Below are positions 41,176 through 47,692 of a stretch of DNA of 64,000 bases, piece after piece. How positions within the stretch are numbered: position 1 is the first letter of the stretch; each line of letters begins with the position of its first letter. Origin of the DNA: Arctopsyche grandis (lineage: Eukaryota; Arthropoda; Insecta; Trichoptera; Hydropsychidae); NCBI RefSeq assembly GCF_051622035.1, contig NC_135364.1, positions 24,111,001-24,175,000 on the forward strand. The letters run 5' to 3'. Under the pieces are notes generated by a model, which was given only the letters and a program-made list of their open reading frames with translations, ran no database searches and was not told the origin of the DNA. Position numbers and translations under genes: made by a program.

Positions 41176-41673
41176 TTACGCGCGCTTACTGATCTCGCGG
41201 TGGGAGATCCAGAGGGCGGATACGTCGTTCTTCTTCCAAGGGTCGGGTTATAGGGAAACGTGAACTAACCTTGGGATACAGTTTATATAGTCGGGGAGGT
41301 TCCTGACTGCAAATCGTCTTGTTGATAACAGCTTCCTCGTGGTCGGGAGCTGGCTCTGCGATTCGGGCCGGTCCACTCGCGTCTGATGTTTCTTCGGAAA
41401 TAGCGTGAGCAATACGAGGACGTTGGCTGGAACTCTTGGGAGGGAGGGGTGCTGCACTCGACCTCACAGCGGTTCTTCAGCAAGATGGCGGATCTCTGAG
41501 CCCCGTCTCCCCGTGGAGACGTGCACAGGAGAGATCCTTTCTCGGCGATGGATGGCGGGTGAGAGGCTCGCTCTCGATGCGCGCGTGCCTATATGGCGCG
41601 CTTTTCTGTGTGGCCACTCGAAATAAAAGGCGAGTGTTGCCCTATGGGACTATGGGGAGAACGTCGCGTTACA
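41176..41673 (-). mobile_element. solo LTR, family A, end-truncated
   Basis: On the minus strand it starts TGTAACGCGACGTTC at 41673 and matches 2707-3230 up to GCGCGCGTAAAAC near 41176, then loses the final CAGTTCGTTACA. No clear target duplication because one end is gone. Confidence 0.8.
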
Positions 41674-41689
41674 AAATGTAGGCATATAG

Positions 41690-42314
41690 TACAACTGAAA
41701 TGATCTCATCAGTTCACTGCGACACATATCCAGGAAAGTCATTAACGCATGGCACACGCTCGCCTCGTCAAAAGGTCGACACGTGTTTCTATACACGTAT
41801 CTGGGAAACAAAGGAAGAACACACTGAACCCATAAAAACCACGAACTACGTCCAGGCGTATGAACCCATAAAACATAACTAGGGCAGCGCGAGTACCAAG
41901 AACAAAAGATGTGCACACGACACACTTCAACCCAAAACGTTTATAAAGCAACGCAGCAACCTCCACCGGCAGAGTGAGCCTCTAGAGTTCAACTAGATCA
42001 CATCTCCGAAGAAACCTCTTCGTACATACAATAACCATTGTACCAATTGAACGCAAATAAACGATCCTCTTTCAAACTACACAACACGTGTTTCGTTAGA
42101 CCGGGATACGGTCAACATACCTTCCCTGTCTTACACTGGTGACCCCTGTTTCTATAACTGGTGACCCTCTCACCTGTCTTACACTGATGACCGCCGACTA
42201 CTAAATTGGCGATCTTACACTGGTGACCCCCTCAACGAACGTCGCAACTTCGCAACAGCCAGCACTACCTGTCTTACACTGATGACCGCCGACTACTAAA
42301 TTGGCGATCTTACA
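41690..42314 (+). mobile_element. LTR and leader fragment of a gypsy-like element
   Basis: A TTTATAAAG box near 41940, GCAATAAACGATCC-like poly(A) words near 42054, then ACTGGTGACCCC repeated at about 42133 and 42218, the kind of primer-binding-site leader seen after many insect gypsy LTRs. A ~47-bp block (CTGTCTTACACTGATGACCG to GGCGATCTTAC) is present twice. No gag or pol follows; the LINE begins soon after. Confidence 0.45.
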
Positions 42315-42329
42315 AAAATATAAATAAAA

Positions 42330-42663
42330 TTGTCTTATGTATGTGTAACGAAAAAAAAATATAGAGTGGGTTCGTAGCTTCACTAAGACCCGGATTTTCT
42401 TTTGGCGGCTCTGAATTTGTACACAATTCAATTAGGTAAAAGAAACATTTTAAGTCATTTGAAAATAAAAACATGGTATAGGGGGTGATTGGAGTGAGAC
42501 GACTTTTTAATCGATGCGGTGCAAACGATCGAAAAGCGCCAGACAGACTGAACCACAGATTAACGACACGTGTATTGAATTGAAGTGTGTTCGTTGTCGC
42601 GTTCGGTCGTGTCGCCAAAGTGTGTTTTTGCTACTTCTTCATTGTTACTAAATAAAATATAAA
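42330..42663 (+). mobile_element. presumed 5' UTR of the two-ORF LINE
   Basis: Leader before ORF1 without long frames. The precise 5' end is unknown. TCTTATG at about 42335 also occurs right after the 3' tail (46289), so it may be a 7-bp target duplication, but so short a match could be chance. Confidence 0.4.
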
Positions 42664-43308
42664 ATGGCCAAGTACGTGCAAAGCGTCTCCAAAATATTAG
42701 AGAGTATGGTCCAAGTCCTCATGGACCCTGTCAATAGATTTAGCAAGGACCAAATGGCCAAATTGATGCCTTTCACCTCTGATATCTCGCAAACTGTAGG
42801 CGAAATGTCCTGTAATATTGCAATGCTGGAAGGAGAGCTGTCAGCTACCAAAATTTATATGTCTAAAGATACACCCACCACGATTGAATCGACATTGGAA
42901 CTTGTTAGTGAAATGGAAGAAAGAAAAAATAGAAAAAACAATGTTATCATATTTGACATTACTGAAACAGGTAATAATGACGACAATAATGTAATCGCAA
43001 ATTTATTGTCAAAAGCCGAGCTACCTAACCACAAATTCACCGCTCATAGAATCGGATTAAAACAAGGTACGAAGCCAAGGCCCCTAAAAGTTAAACTCGA
43101 TGTACAGCAAACAGCAATATCATTACTTAGAAAAGGACCCAAATTAGGAATTAAAATAAAAAATGACCTAACGTACATGCAAAGACTACATATAAACAAT
43201 TTGTGGATCGAAATGAATACCAGAAAAGACAAAGGTGAAAGTGACTTAATAATAAAATATTTTAATGGAGTGCCTAAAATAATAAATAAAAATAGTACAA
43301 AAAACTAA
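42664..43308 (+). CDS. LINE ORF1 protein
   Basis: A 214-residue protein with a helical N-terminal half (about 1-90, likely coiled coil) followed by an RRM-like segment starting RKNNVIIFDI (about 94) and continuing HRIGLKQGTKPRPLKVKL. This is the usual shape of ORF1p in CR1/L2/Jockey-group LINEs, a nucleic-acid-binding chaperone of the retrotransposition particle. I see no CCHC zinc knuckles. The last codons are ACA AAA AAC TAA, which form the heptamer A-AAA-AAC directly against the stop. The frame is intact with no premature stop. Confidence 0.82.
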   Translation: MAKYVQSVSKILESMVQVLMDPVNRFSKDQMAKLMPFTSDISQTVGEMSCNIAMLEGELSATKIYMSKDTPTTIESTLELVSEMEERKNRKNNVIIFDITETGNNDDNNVIANLLSKAELPNHKFTAHRIGLKQGTKPRPLKVKLDVQQTAISLLRKGPKLGIKIKNDLTYMQRLHINNLWIEMNTRKDKGESDLIIKYFNGVPKIINKNSTKN

Positions 43309-46133
43309 CAATATATTACCAAAATGTTCGAAGCATTATATCTAAAATACAATTCCTTAAAAATGCTATAGCTGCTTCCGCATATGACATCATATTATTA
43401 ACAGAAACGTGGCTAAACAACCTTATAAATGACTCCGAACTAAACTTTCATACATACAATATGTATAGATATGATAGAAACATAAACACCAGTACGAAGA
43501 CTCGAGGCGGTGGCGTGGCAATTCTTATTAAAAAAGTTCATTCATCATCTGTCATCATCAACACAAACAATTCCATCGAACAAATATTTATATCAACCCA
43601 AATTTTCAATGTAAAGTGCATATTCGGTTGTGTTTACATCCCTCCATCCTCTGACATTAGTGTATATAATAATTTTATAAATAATATTGAAACAATCAGA
43701 TTAAAATATCCTGATTCAAAATTCTTAATAACTGGTGATTTTAATCTACCAAATTTGGACTGGCAAAACCTTGAAATGAATGAAAATTCTCCAATTCATC
43801 AAGAAATTATAAATTTATCTTTAAATTTAGGTCTTAAACAATTTAATACTATTTCCAACTTGAATGATCGTGTCTTAGATTTAGTTTTTTCCAATTTCAA
43901 AAACACTAACGTTATGAAATCTCATGATGTTCTATCTCCAGTGGATGGCCATCATCCACCCCTAGATATTATTATTACTTTAAATAAATCTACTAATCTA
44001 CCTTTAATTCAGCAAAATATTTTTGATTTTCACAGAGCCGATTATAACGAAATCATGAACCAATTAAATGTCACTAATTGGTCGTTCTTAAACGATAACA
44101 TTAACTTTGAATCAAAAGTCATTATGCTGAATGAATTATTAATCTCTTGTATATACAACCATGTTCCTCAATATAAAAATAAGTTGCATTTTTTTCCAAA
44201 ATGGTTTAGTCCCGAATTAAAAAACCTAATACATAAAAAAAAAAGTGTGCACAAATTATTCAAAATTTATAACTCTACACACATATATATTGAATTCAAA
44301 AAACTAAGAGCTTTGTGTAAACTACATATATACAAATGTTTTAAACTTTATATTAAAAAAACAGAATCATTCATTGATTCAAATTCCAAATATTTTTGGT
44401 CATTTACTAAAGAATTAAACAACAATAAAACATATATACCAGAAAACATTCAACTTAACGGTAAATTTGTTGACAATACTAATGATTCAGTCAATCTTTT
44501 TGCTGATTTTTTCAAATCGATCTATGTCAAAAACAACAACAATAATTCTAATTATAGCATTGTAAATAATAATGTCCTGATTTCACCTTTACATTCTATA
44601 AATATATCTATTCAAAAATTAATTAACAAAATAAATGCCTTAGATATATCTAAATCTGCGGGTCCTGACAACATACCCCCAATTTTTATCAAGAATTGTG
44701 CCAATGTATTAACTTATCCTCTTTTTAATCTCTTTAATCAATCTATTTCCACTGGTATATTTCCCAATTCTTGGAAGTCTGGCTATTTAATGCCTCTCCA
44801 TAAAAATGGGGATAAACATAATGTAATGAACTATAGAGCCATCTGTCAACTATCAACTATTCCAAAACTTTTTGAAAGTTTAGTATTAGACGAATTTATT
44901 CCTTTCATTAATAACATTATTATTCCACAACAACATGGTTTTACTTCTGGTAGATCTACCTTATCCAATTTATTATTATATGAAAATTTTATTTCTAGTG
45001 CCTTATCTGTTAAATTGCAAGTTGACTCAATTTACACTGATTTCAGTAAAGCATTTGACAAAGTTGATATTGAGATTTTATTATATAAACTAAACAGTAT
45101 CGGAATCAGCGGTGTATTACTAAACTGGTTTCGGAGCTATTTGTCCAATAGATCATTATTAGTTAAAATCGGCCATTCTAAATCTTACTCCTTTAATCCA
45201 ACTAGTGGCGTTCCCCAAGGATCTCACATGGGACCAGTCCTATTCAATATTTTTATAAATGATATTATAAATATATTTAATGATGTTAAAGTGCTCTTAT
45301 TTGCAGACGATTTAAAAATATTTAAATGTATAAAAGACACTAACGATTGTGCTACTTTACAAACTAATTTAAACTCATTAAACGATTGGTGTTCTTTTAA
45401 TAAATTATATTTAAACATTAAGAAGTGTTCTGTTGTCAGGTTCAGTAGGTCAAATAACAAAATTATTTATAATTATCATATAAATAATGAATCATTACCA
45501 TCATCATCGCTAATTAAAGATCTAGGAGTTATTTTTGACGACAAATTAACTTTTAATTCTCATATAAATTTTATCACAAAAAATGCCATCAAAACACTTG
45601 GTTTCTTAATAAGAAATAGTACTCACTTCAAAAATGTAAATACGATTAAAATTTTATACACCACTCTGGTTAGAAACCAATTAGAGTACAATTCTACCAT
45701 TTGGTCTCCTTATTTAATGAAACAAATTAACATAATAGAGTCAGTGCAAATAAAGTTCACTAGATTCATCAAATTTAAATTTTTTAAAAGTCATAATCAC
45801 TATGTCAGTAACGTTATTATTTATAGGAAACTTAATTTGCTAAAATTATATGACAGAAGGAAAATTAACGATATTTCAGTTCTGTGTGGTCTTCTTAATG
45901 GCACTATTAAATGCTCTGACTTGGTGAGTTTAGTGTGCTTCCATGTGCCGGGTAGATCAATTAGATGTAACCATCTTTTTGATATGCCCAGGTTTACCAC
46001 TAATTACTCATTGAACTCAGCTATGTTGAGACTGCACAGAGTTGGAAACGAATTATCCATGGTCGATTTATTCATTGTTAGTAAATATAACATGAAATTT
46101 ATTTTATTTAAATATTTTTTTAATATAATGTAA
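43296..46133 (+). CDS. LINE ORF2: endonuclease and reverse transcriptase
   Basis: Open for 945 codons without a stop. Frame start is at 43296; the first ATG is only at 43461. The APE-type endonuclease begins with YYQNVRSI (43314-43337), has the catalytic-Glu motif TETW (43401-43412), TRGGGVAILIKK, GDFNLPNLDW and DGHHPPLDI. The reverse transcriptase has SAGPDNIPP (about 44655), SKAFDKVD, GVPQGSHMGPVLF and the catalytic FADD at 45300-45311. The C-terminal segment continues to ...YFFNIM. No RNase H domain is seen. The protein nicks DNA and copies the element RNA by target-primed reverse transcription. Because the QN and TETW endonuclease motifs lie before the first ATG, translation must enter from upstream, probably through the frameshift site at 43299. 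Placement in the CR1/Jockey group is clear; the exact clade is not. Confidence 0.88.
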   Translation, partial: YKKLTIYYQNVRSIISKIQFLKNAIAASAYDIILLTETWLNNLINDSELNFHTYNMYRYDRNINTSTKTRGGGVAILIKKVHSSSVIINTNNSIEQIFISTQIFNVKCIFGCVYIPPSSDISVYNNFINNIETIRLKYPDSKFLITGDFNLPNLDWQNLEMNENSPIHQEIINLSLNLGLKQFNTISNLNDRVLDLVFSNFKNTNVMKSHDVLSPVDGHHPPLDIIITLNKSTNLPLIQQNIFDFHRADYNEIMNQLNVTNWSFLNDNINFESKVIMLNELLISCIYNHVPQYKNKLHFFPKWFSPELKNLIHKKKSVHKLFKIYNSTHIYIEFKKLRALCKLHIYKCFKLYIKKTESFIDSNSKYFWSFTKELNNNKTYIPENIQLNGKFVDNTNDSVNLFADFFKSIYVKNNNNNSNYSIVNNNVLISPLHSINISIQKLINKINALDISKSAGPDNIPPIFIKNCANVLTYPLFNLFNQSISTGIFPNSWKSGYLMPLHKNGDKHNVMNYRAICQLSTIPKLFESLVLDEFIPFINNIIIPQQHGFTSGRSTLSNLLLYENFISSALSVKLQVDSIYTDFSKAFDKVDIEILLYKLNSIGISGVLLNWFRSYLSNRSLLVKIGHSKSYSFNPTSGVPQGSHMGPVLFNIFINDIINIFNDVKVLLFADDLKIFKCIKDTNDCATLQTNLNSLNDWCSFNKLYLNIKKCSVVRFSRSNNKIIYNYHINNESLPSSSLIKDLGVIFDDKLTFNSHINFITKNAIKTLGFLIRNSTHFKNVNTIKILYTTLVRNQLEYNSTIWSPYLMKQINIIESVQIKFTRFIKFKFFKSHNHYVSNVIIYRKLNLLKLYDRRKINDISVLCGLLNGTIKCSDLVSLVCFHVPGRSIRCNHLFDMPRFTTNYSLNSAMLRLHRVGNELSMVDLFIVSKYNMKFILFKYFFNIM
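43299..43305 (+). promoter_or_regulatory. candidate -1 ribosomal frameshift heptamer
   Basis: AAAAAAC is read in the ORF1 frame as A-AAA-AAC, the canonical X-XXY-YYZ slippery pattern, with TAA next at 43306. The -1 frame from here is the ORF2 frame, which opens only three codons earlier, after a TAG at 43293. No strong downstream stem is obvious: a 6-bp GAAGCA/TGCTTC pair starts about 25 nt away, further than usual. Confidence 0.6.
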
Positions 46134-46286
46134 TTTATTTTGTAGTATATGAATGTATGTGTATTTTTCTTTTATATTTCATTTTAATTTTTTTTCTTTT
46201 TCTTTCTCTATTTCCAACATGTAAAATGGTCAATTTTTTCTTGACCGTAAAATAAAATAAAATAAAATAAAATAAAAAGTATCTTA
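46134..46286 (+). mobile_element. 3' UTR and TAAAA tail of the LINE
   Basis: AT-rich 3' UTR containing TTTTTTCTTGACCGTAAAAT, ending in a run of TAAAA units at about 46250-46281. Microsatellite tails of this kind replace poly(A) in CR1/L2-type LINEs. Confidence 0.7.
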
Positions 46287-46691: not shown

Positions 46692-47692
46692 TGTAACGCG
46701 ACGTTCTCCCGAGTGTCTCTTCAGTTGGTGGCGGTAGTAATCTTTAGGGTGCCACCAGTTACTTAACCGCGCCAACACCATACCCCTCTCGGGCAGTATC
46801 GAGAGCAGCTCTCTCTACAGCCAGCCATCATCCGGGAAGGACCTCCCCATCCGGCATCTCCGCCGAGCGTCTTCAGAGACGCCCAGAGATCGCCATCTTG
46901 TGTCCACACGAGGCAGTACGGAGTTTGTCTCCTGCCTCCACCTCCCGCTGCTGTGACCTGACCAGCGGTGCTTAAACGAGGAGACGACCGCAGAGCCCGC
47001 TTCCCGAGCACGAGGAAGCTGTTATCAACGAAGACGACTTGCAGTGAGGAACCTCCCCGACTATATACATATATTTATATTATGCTGGCATATATCGGAC
47101 TTAACGTCCGAGCTATGCCAGCAGCATAGCTCGGACGTTAAGCTTCTGCTTACCGTCAAGAAGGTGCCGGGTTCTATCCCTGAATGAAAATGAATTTTTC
47201 AGAGTATGCTGTTGGTCAGACCTGGATTTGTGACTCCAGGTTGATCGTTTCCTATCAGAGTTTGCCAATTTTCTCTGATTTTCATTGTTGAAACGGTTCC
47301 CGGAAAAAAAAAAATTGGCTAAAAATCCTTCCTACCTACTATGTCACCACTATTTGAAATTTGATGGATGTACAATAAAAATTTATGTACAATTCATAGA
47401 TGTCTCGTTAATTTGCGAGTTTTTTCAGTGTCTCGCAATTCAACGACTTATAATAAAAAAAATGCTGCATTTGTATTTGTAATTGGCCAGGAAGGCGCAT
47501 TGGGATTTACCTGTAAGGCCTTCCTGGTATATATGTAAAATAAAAATAAAAATAAAAATAAAATATATATATAACTATCCCAAGGTTAGTCCACGTTTCT
47601 ACATAACCCGACCCTTGGAAGAATAACGGAGTAAACGCCCTCTGCACTTCCACCGCGAGATCAGATAAAAGCGCGTAAATCCGTTCGTTACA
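46692..47692 (+). mobile_element. solo LTR, family A, split by a SINE
   Basis: TGTAACGCGACGTTC to CCGTTCGTTACA with an exact AAAT duplication (46688-46691 and 47693-47696). Removing the SINE at about 47082-47570 leaves roughly 500 bp, the family length. The middle has diverged more than in the other copies. Confidence 0.85.
47118..47562 (+). mobile_element. SINE inside the solo LTR, with inverted head piece
   Basis: Head with TAGCTCGGACGTTAAGC and the box B word GGTTCTATCCC, body, 3' hairpin CCAGGAAGGC/GCCTTCCTGG and AAAAT tail. Just before it (47099-47118) an inverted copy of about 20 bases of the head forms a hairpin with 47124-47143. Confidence 0.8.

Follow-up and report, generated by a model that had tools for sequence, protein, structure and literature searches.

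Ribosomal −1 frameshifting is well known in retroviruses and long terminal repeat (LTR) elements, at their gag-pro and gag-pol junctions. There, an RNA-binding open reading frame (ORF) overlaps an enzyme ORF that is read in the −1 frame, and a slippery heptamer of the form X_XXY_YYZ lies in the overlap, near the stop of the first; the second ORF has no start codon, and a pseudoknot or stem-loop usually follows a few nucleotides (nt) downstream. Here we analyse a 64,000 nt stretch from the trichopteran Arctopsyche grandis (RefSeq assembly GCF_051622035.1, contig NC_135364.1, positions 24,111,001 to 24,175,000 of the forward strand; hereafter the window, with positions counted from its first letter). 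It carries a long interspersed nuclear element (LINE) whose ORF1-ORF2 junction resembles those sites in all these respects except the downstream structure, for which we find no support. The element itself is of another kind, a LINE encoding an apurinic/apyrimidinic endonuclease (APE)-type endonuclease (EN) and a reverse transcriptase (RT), and we think it fairly probable from comparison of its copies that it makes an ORF1-ORF2 fusion by −1 frameshifting.

For LINEs, the cases of second-ORF translation described in the available excerpts of PMC5009743, PMC5972666 and PMC2881922 (these and PMC1965478 are cited throughout from such excerpts) involve reinitiation or unknown modes. SART1 from Bombyx is likewise a two-ORF LINE with touching or overlapping ORFs (PMC5972666, PMC2881922). 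Its coupling uses UAAUG, whereas no copy of our element that was read has an AUG at the junction; six of the eight diverged loci described below have UAAUC or UAAUU, and the window does not. Mammalian LINE-1 (L1) also has EN and RT in ORF2, its ORF1 protein (ORF1p) resembles our ORF1p model, and the AUG of its ORF2 is dispensable (PMC1965478), but its ORFs do not overlap, being separated by a 63-nt spacer (PMC5972666). HeT-A, a telomeric element of Drosophila, is a non-LTR element stated to need frameshifting (PMC5009743), but in that RT-less element the shift concerns the gag gene and joins no ORF1 to an ORF2; the same excerpts name frameshifting for HeT-A gag and leave TART and L1 unsettled. 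ORF1-ORF2 frameshifting in a LINE was not found in the titles, abstract openings and excerpts searched, which leave most subscription journals and Repbase notes outside. Frameshifting of the −1 type being known in itself, the joining of ORF1 to ORF2 in a LINE would be the new part, as suggested by comparative evidence within one genome.

A slippery heptamer at the ORF1-ORF2 junction

The features on which the argument turns are the following.

42584..46282, + strand: full-length two-ORF LINE with a short 5′ untranslated region and an (AAAAT)n-like tail, ends approximate
42664..43308, + strand: ORF1, 214 amino acids (aa) plus TAA
43293..43295, + strand: TAG closing the ORF2 frame upstream, changed or deleted in diverged copies
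43299..43305, + strand: slippery heptamer A_AAA_AAC, proposed −1 slip site, in 0-frame phase within the overlap with the −1 ORF
43306..43308, + strand: ORF1 stop TAA, directly 3′ of the heptamer, as read in the sequence
43305..46133, + strand: ORF2, 942 aa counted from CTA, with APE-type endonuclease and reverse transcriptase

ORF1 ends ACA AAA AAC TAA, which places the heptamer in the right phase against the stop, and ORF2 lies in the −1 frame, closed upstream by a TAG three codons before the CTA at 43305. Both points had been made in the initial annotation of this DNA and are read directly from the sequence. The ORF2 frame is open from 43296 to 46133; at the junction its codons run TAC AAA AAA CTA ACA ATA TAT TAC CAA AAT GTT, with the CAA of the endonuclease motif QN at 43320, and the second motif, TETW, is encoded by ACA-GAA-ACG-TGG at 43401. 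Both motifs precede the first ORF2 ATG (43461), as had been noted, and all coordinates given earlier proved correct. The arrangement is that of a canonical −1 frameshift site, an X_XXY_YYZ in 0-frame phase inside the overlap with a −1 ORF. The heptamer on its own does not settle the matter; more weight falls on how well it is conserved and on the lack of an ATG.

Conservation of the heptamer among genomic copies

A search with a 401-nt query gave at least 40 scored matches, out of 75 candidates, at 98-100% identity; 40 such copies, the window's own among them, were refetched in full. The heptamer followed by TAA is identical in all 40. Both ORFs are full length (214 codons for ORF1, 942 for ORF2) in 17 of them; in all of these the heptamer is intact, and no ATG stands between it and QN. 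Four members of this set (L037, L039, L045 and L046) are local duplicates from a single region of contig C2, with 0-4 nt differences among them, and do not represent separate insertion events. Another 12 loci bring the near-identical copies read to 52; AAAAAAC is kept in 52/52 and TAA in 51/52. The exception, L086 (C2:31150000-31150240), has CAA in place of TAA and keeps the heptamer; its ORF2 frame, of 945 codons, is open. Neither an ATG at or before QN nor a lost heptamer with intact ORFs, the two outcomes named beforehand as contrary to frameshifting, turned up in the copies read.

Six more near-identical copies stand outside this junction count (C10:8959874, C10:11960694, C2:33088468, C2:30978089, C2:33792857 and C162:91079). 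The last three of them share the longer ORF1 frame of L086 (239 codons; the frames are at C2:30978583, C2:33793351 and C162:90435). Contig C2 also holds, at 31-34.4 Mb, many copies with identical truncation points in one region, which suggests a local or segmental amplification carrying the LINE.

Searches with an older copy and with ORF1 added eight diverged loci at which the junction can be read. The tandem pair L083/L098 was scored as one locus, L102 and L103 (decayed ORF2 starts) were scored for the heptamer only, and L105 and L106 (no recognisable junction) and L107 (ORF2 interior) were left out. Six of the eight carry the heptamer unaltered and in the register of ORF2: C4:27160165, C2:513534, C5:32277060 (with its tandem twin), C8:23747458, C11:7115196 and C3:36766526, hereafter named by contig where this is unambiguous. 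In C10:28778747 the site is A_AAA_AAA, which remains a slippery heptamer. C2:384173, with one extra A (7 A in the run), was scored as changed, although the alignment places that A outside the heptamer. The alignment across copies proposed in the initial annotation thus finds heptamer, phase and absence of an ATG largely kept within the same genome.

What surrounds the heptamer varies in these loci. The upstream TAG changes, as does the next codon 3′, and so does the placement of the stop: TAA follows the heptamer either at once or, in C2:513534 and C8, after one intervening codon (AAC TAT TAA and AAC TCT TAA). Overall nucleotide identity to the window is 75% for C8 and 64.6% for C11, the heptamer of C11 being nonetheless identical; of the other in-phase ORF1 7-mers, 4/198 in C11 and 1/23 in C8 match the window. 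A ten-sequence tree requires one parsimony change in the heptamer, against a mean of 4.9 (standard deviation 1.9) per 7-column window, and windows with at most one change number 10 of 231, five of them overlapping the heptamer. The heptamer is by these measures conserved beyond its surroundings, in few independent lineages. Its last codon goes against the usage of ORF1, with 15 AAT versus 4 AAC; AAT is found at the heptamer in no copy read.

Selection on ORF2 before its first ATG

The stretch that an ATG-initiated ORF2 would lack is under selection in the ORF2 frame, as measured by the ratio of nonsynonymous to synonymous differences (pN/pS).

43305..43460, + strand: ORF2 coding stretch before the first ATG, including QN and TETW, pN/pS 0.09-0.25

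Against six copies (46-52 codons each), pN/pS over 43305-43460 is 0.09, 0.09, 0.15, 0.11, 0.10 and 0.25 in the ORF2 frame, the comparisons being non-independent in that the window is common to all and some ancestry is in common. The same stretch gives 0.35-1.34 in the ORF1 frame and, where defined, 0.81-1.69 in the third frame. Upstream of the heptamer ORF1 likewise behaves as coding sequence when read in frame, with values of 0.10-0.23 in five comparisons, a picture made less clean by a value of 0.70 in the decayed C8 copy. The low ORF2-frame values imply that the ORF2 protein includes this stretch and that its start lies within a few codons of the heptamer: a second ORF without an AUG of its own, coding from the proposed slip site onward. 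Initiation at the ATG at 43461 was rejected on the grounds of ORF2-frame selection on the preceding 52 codons; another ATG, at 43324, was rejected as being in the ORF1 frame with a stop soon after.

Proposed mechanism

Under −1 frameshifting, most ribosomes would terminate at the TAA and release the 214-aa RNA-binding ORF1p, while a small fraction, holding tRNA-Lys and tRNA-Asn on A_AAA_AAC, would move back by one base. CUA would then be read next, yielding a fusion of about 1,156 aa (ORF1p-EN-RT) in which RT is a C-terminal extension of ORF1p; the predicted junction peptide is ...NSTKNLTIYYQNVR... (spanning ...STKNLTIYYQ). The slip rate would set the ratio of ORF1p to RT, and the enzyme would become part of the ORF1p complex on the RNA that encodes it, much like Gag-Pol. 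More speculatively, slow termination at the adjacent UAA might supply the pause in place of a pseudoknot.

Such a slip accounts for a heptamer that persists although the stop and the sequence around it drift. It also accounts for the retention of AAC in an ORF1 that prefers AAT, and for the lack of an AUG in the copies read. The reading put forward in the initial annotation, a −1 slip reaching ORF2, therefore gains support from the copies, from the missing ATG and from selection ahead of the first one, the frameshift itself being our inference. If it is correct, the element would demonstrate, through a −1 slip site that is natural and conserved, the ability of LINEs to couple their enzyme to the RNA-binding protein in the manner of retroviruses, and enzyme ratio and cis preference would be explained in one step. 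ATG-based annotation would then trim the start of the endonuclease from such elements.

Evidence against frameshifting and alternative explanations

Several observations weigh against this reading. The family is A-rich, and an in-phase heptamer at the stop arises in about 1% of cases by chance under codon shuffling: in 20,000 shuffles of ORF1, an XXXYYYZ fell directly against the stop in 1.07% and at either of the last two positions in 1.99%. In-phase XXXYYYZ heptamers are found five times in ORF1, counting the junction one and another A_AAA_AAC at 42933, and 15 times in ORF2. Conservation of the heptamer is less discriminating in the closer locus C2:513534, which matches the window at 22/98 other in-phase 7-mers. 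More generally, there are few diverged loci, most have decayed and they share descent, so that the conservation is suggestive rather than overwhelming. No relative in another species was confirmed in the genome contigs, phages or viral contigs searched (one viral-contig match at 31%, L112, was left unused).

Nor does the region after the heptamer fold convincingly, in line with a reservation already expressed in the initial annotation. Local, pseudoknot-free searches (single-sequence folds, RNAalifold on sub-windows of seven rows and a pair count on eight rows) found no stable structure 5-9 nt 3′ of the heptamer, and nothing folds in the first 18 nt. Fold z-scores for the window and L046 range from −0.4 to −2.3. 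One candidate was considered:

43324..43390, + strand: weak hairpin in which 43324-43335 pairs with both 43373-43378 and 43385-43390, its 5′ end 18 nt from the heptamer

This 12-pair hairpin recurs in several copies; it was rejected as evidence of a stimulator, its one double change being reached by 113 of 500 shuffles and its distance from the heptamer being 18 nt.

The missing AUG could have another cause, since the initial annotation's caveat that translation might begin at a non-AUG codon next to the stop still stands. Stop-coupled reinitiation at an adjacent AUA, AUC or AUU would release a free ORF2 protein (ORF2p) starting ...IYYQN and leave the heptamer incidental, an account we consider rather unlikely. 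It is built on one codon:

43311..43313, + strand: near-cognate ATA isoleucine codon beside the stop

This position reads ATA, ATC or ATT in 8/8 rows of one alignment and 9/10 rows of another, which counts for reinitiation, although protein selection alone would account for an isoleucine there; the one exception, C11, has TTT, in a copy whose ORF2 is decayed. In six of the eight diverged loci the AUH codon overlaps a UAA, as UAAUC in C2:513534, UAAUU in C8 and UAAUAAUC in C5, C10, C2:384173 and C3, whereas the window and C4 read UAACAAUA/UAACAAUC, without overlap. Precedent in LINEs exists in the UAAUG coupling of SART1 and the unconventional mode of L1 (PMC5972666, PMC2881922), and the first ORF2 ATG of L1 can be replaced by other sense codons (PMC1965478); in Zorro3, on the other hand, changing ATG to ACG lowers retrotransposition to <5% in one table and 18% in another of the excerpted PMC1965478. 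Reinitiation at this codon leaves the conservation of the heptamer unexplained, and although a single base would turn AUH into AUG, no copy read has AUG there.

Stop-coupled initiation that needs no particular codon, a mode proposed for mammalian L1, would suit, as would internal ribosome entry at the end of ORF1, the A/U-rich, weakly structured junction, and L1 ORF2 translation is described as AUG-independent (PMC1965478). We hold either to be improbable: under both, the heptamer and its distance to ORF2 should be free to change. If transcription or reverse transcription instead slipped on the run of A, mRNA or DNA copies with an altered number of A would arise in which the ORFs are joined in frame, and the run does vary in diverged copies (the 7 A of C2:384173, and a longer run in C4 after a 12-nt deletion). 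Six A are short for polymerase slippage. An altered heptamer is seen in 0/52 near-identical copies read, which leaves this explanation with very little probability. Frameshifting at A_AAA_AAC remains the reading we prefer.

The element and its surroundings

The structure of the element is that of an APE-type non-LTR retrotransposon, with EN and RT in ORF2, no LTR, a simple-repeat tail at the 3′ end and 5′-truncated copies. Alignment (blastn) of the refetched copies puts many 5′ ends at the equivalent of 42583-42586 and the 3′ ends near 46277; the element is young and probably active. ORF2 matches PF03372 (2.5e-9), PF14529 (9.9e-10) and PF00078 (3.6e-30) in Pfam, and LINE-1 ORF2p and R2 chains in PDB. 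For ORF1, none of the three sequences scanned matched a Pfam family above the cut-off, transposase_22 included, and comparison by sequence with PDB gave no match below E 0.1. Its predicted structure, of modest confidence (mean predicted local distance difference test score, pLDDT, of 56), has a coiled coil, an RNA recognition motif (RRM) and a C-terminal domain and resembles human LINE-1 ORF1p, which supplies the top four Foldseek matches to the model (TM about 0.4). By this modelled fold, ORF1 is L1-like (Type II).

Inverted repeat arms of 76 nt, 84% complementary and 6.3 kb apart (41203-41278 and 47576-47651), flank the LINE, which may be located within an older inverted-repeat element. Direct repeats of 48 nt lie at 42124-42314.

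Other LINE families in the genome

As a baseline, the ORF2 start was read in five other LINE families. In three of them (family B, read in L093-L095; L113; and L114) an ATG stands a few codons ahead of the endonuclease core, and in a fourth (L051, L067) the ATG lies further upstream, in decayed copies. Typical copies of the fifth, a jockey-like family (L049-L078 except L051 and L067, e.g. L049 and L055; C1:8332855 and kin), have no ATG before QN. Their ORF2 frame is already open 43 codons ahead of QN; its overlap with ORF1 is in the +1 direction, and ORF1 stops 38 nt past QN. The string TCA TTT CTT is kept in 9/10 aligned rows; variable sites per codon position did not locate a frame-switch point. 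This family is a candidate for +1 frameshifting, which its sequences indicate it may use.

It is conceivable, though we put it forward with some doubt, that at least two unrelated LINE lineages of this genome dropped the ORF2 start and express RT only as a fusion, one by −1 slippage at A_AAA_AAC and the jockey-like one by +1 slippage (conserved UCA_UUU_CUU, long overlap). If this held for both, Gag-Pol-style fusion would be recurrent in LINEs and overlooked because annotators expect an ATG.

Two further loci deserve mention. L113 (C1:11808260-11808660) belongs to an abundant family in which the ORF2 ATG lies a few nt before the ORF1 stop, like the termination-reinitiation geometry described in the excerpted PMC5972666. 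On C11, L108 together with L102 (7113150-7115870) forms a 911-aa open frame whose upstream part matched no family in a Pfam scan and whose last ~240 codons, free of stops, are homologous to ORF1 at 49% identity and are followed by a decayed ORF2; this frame is possibly a host gene with a captured LINE ORF1.

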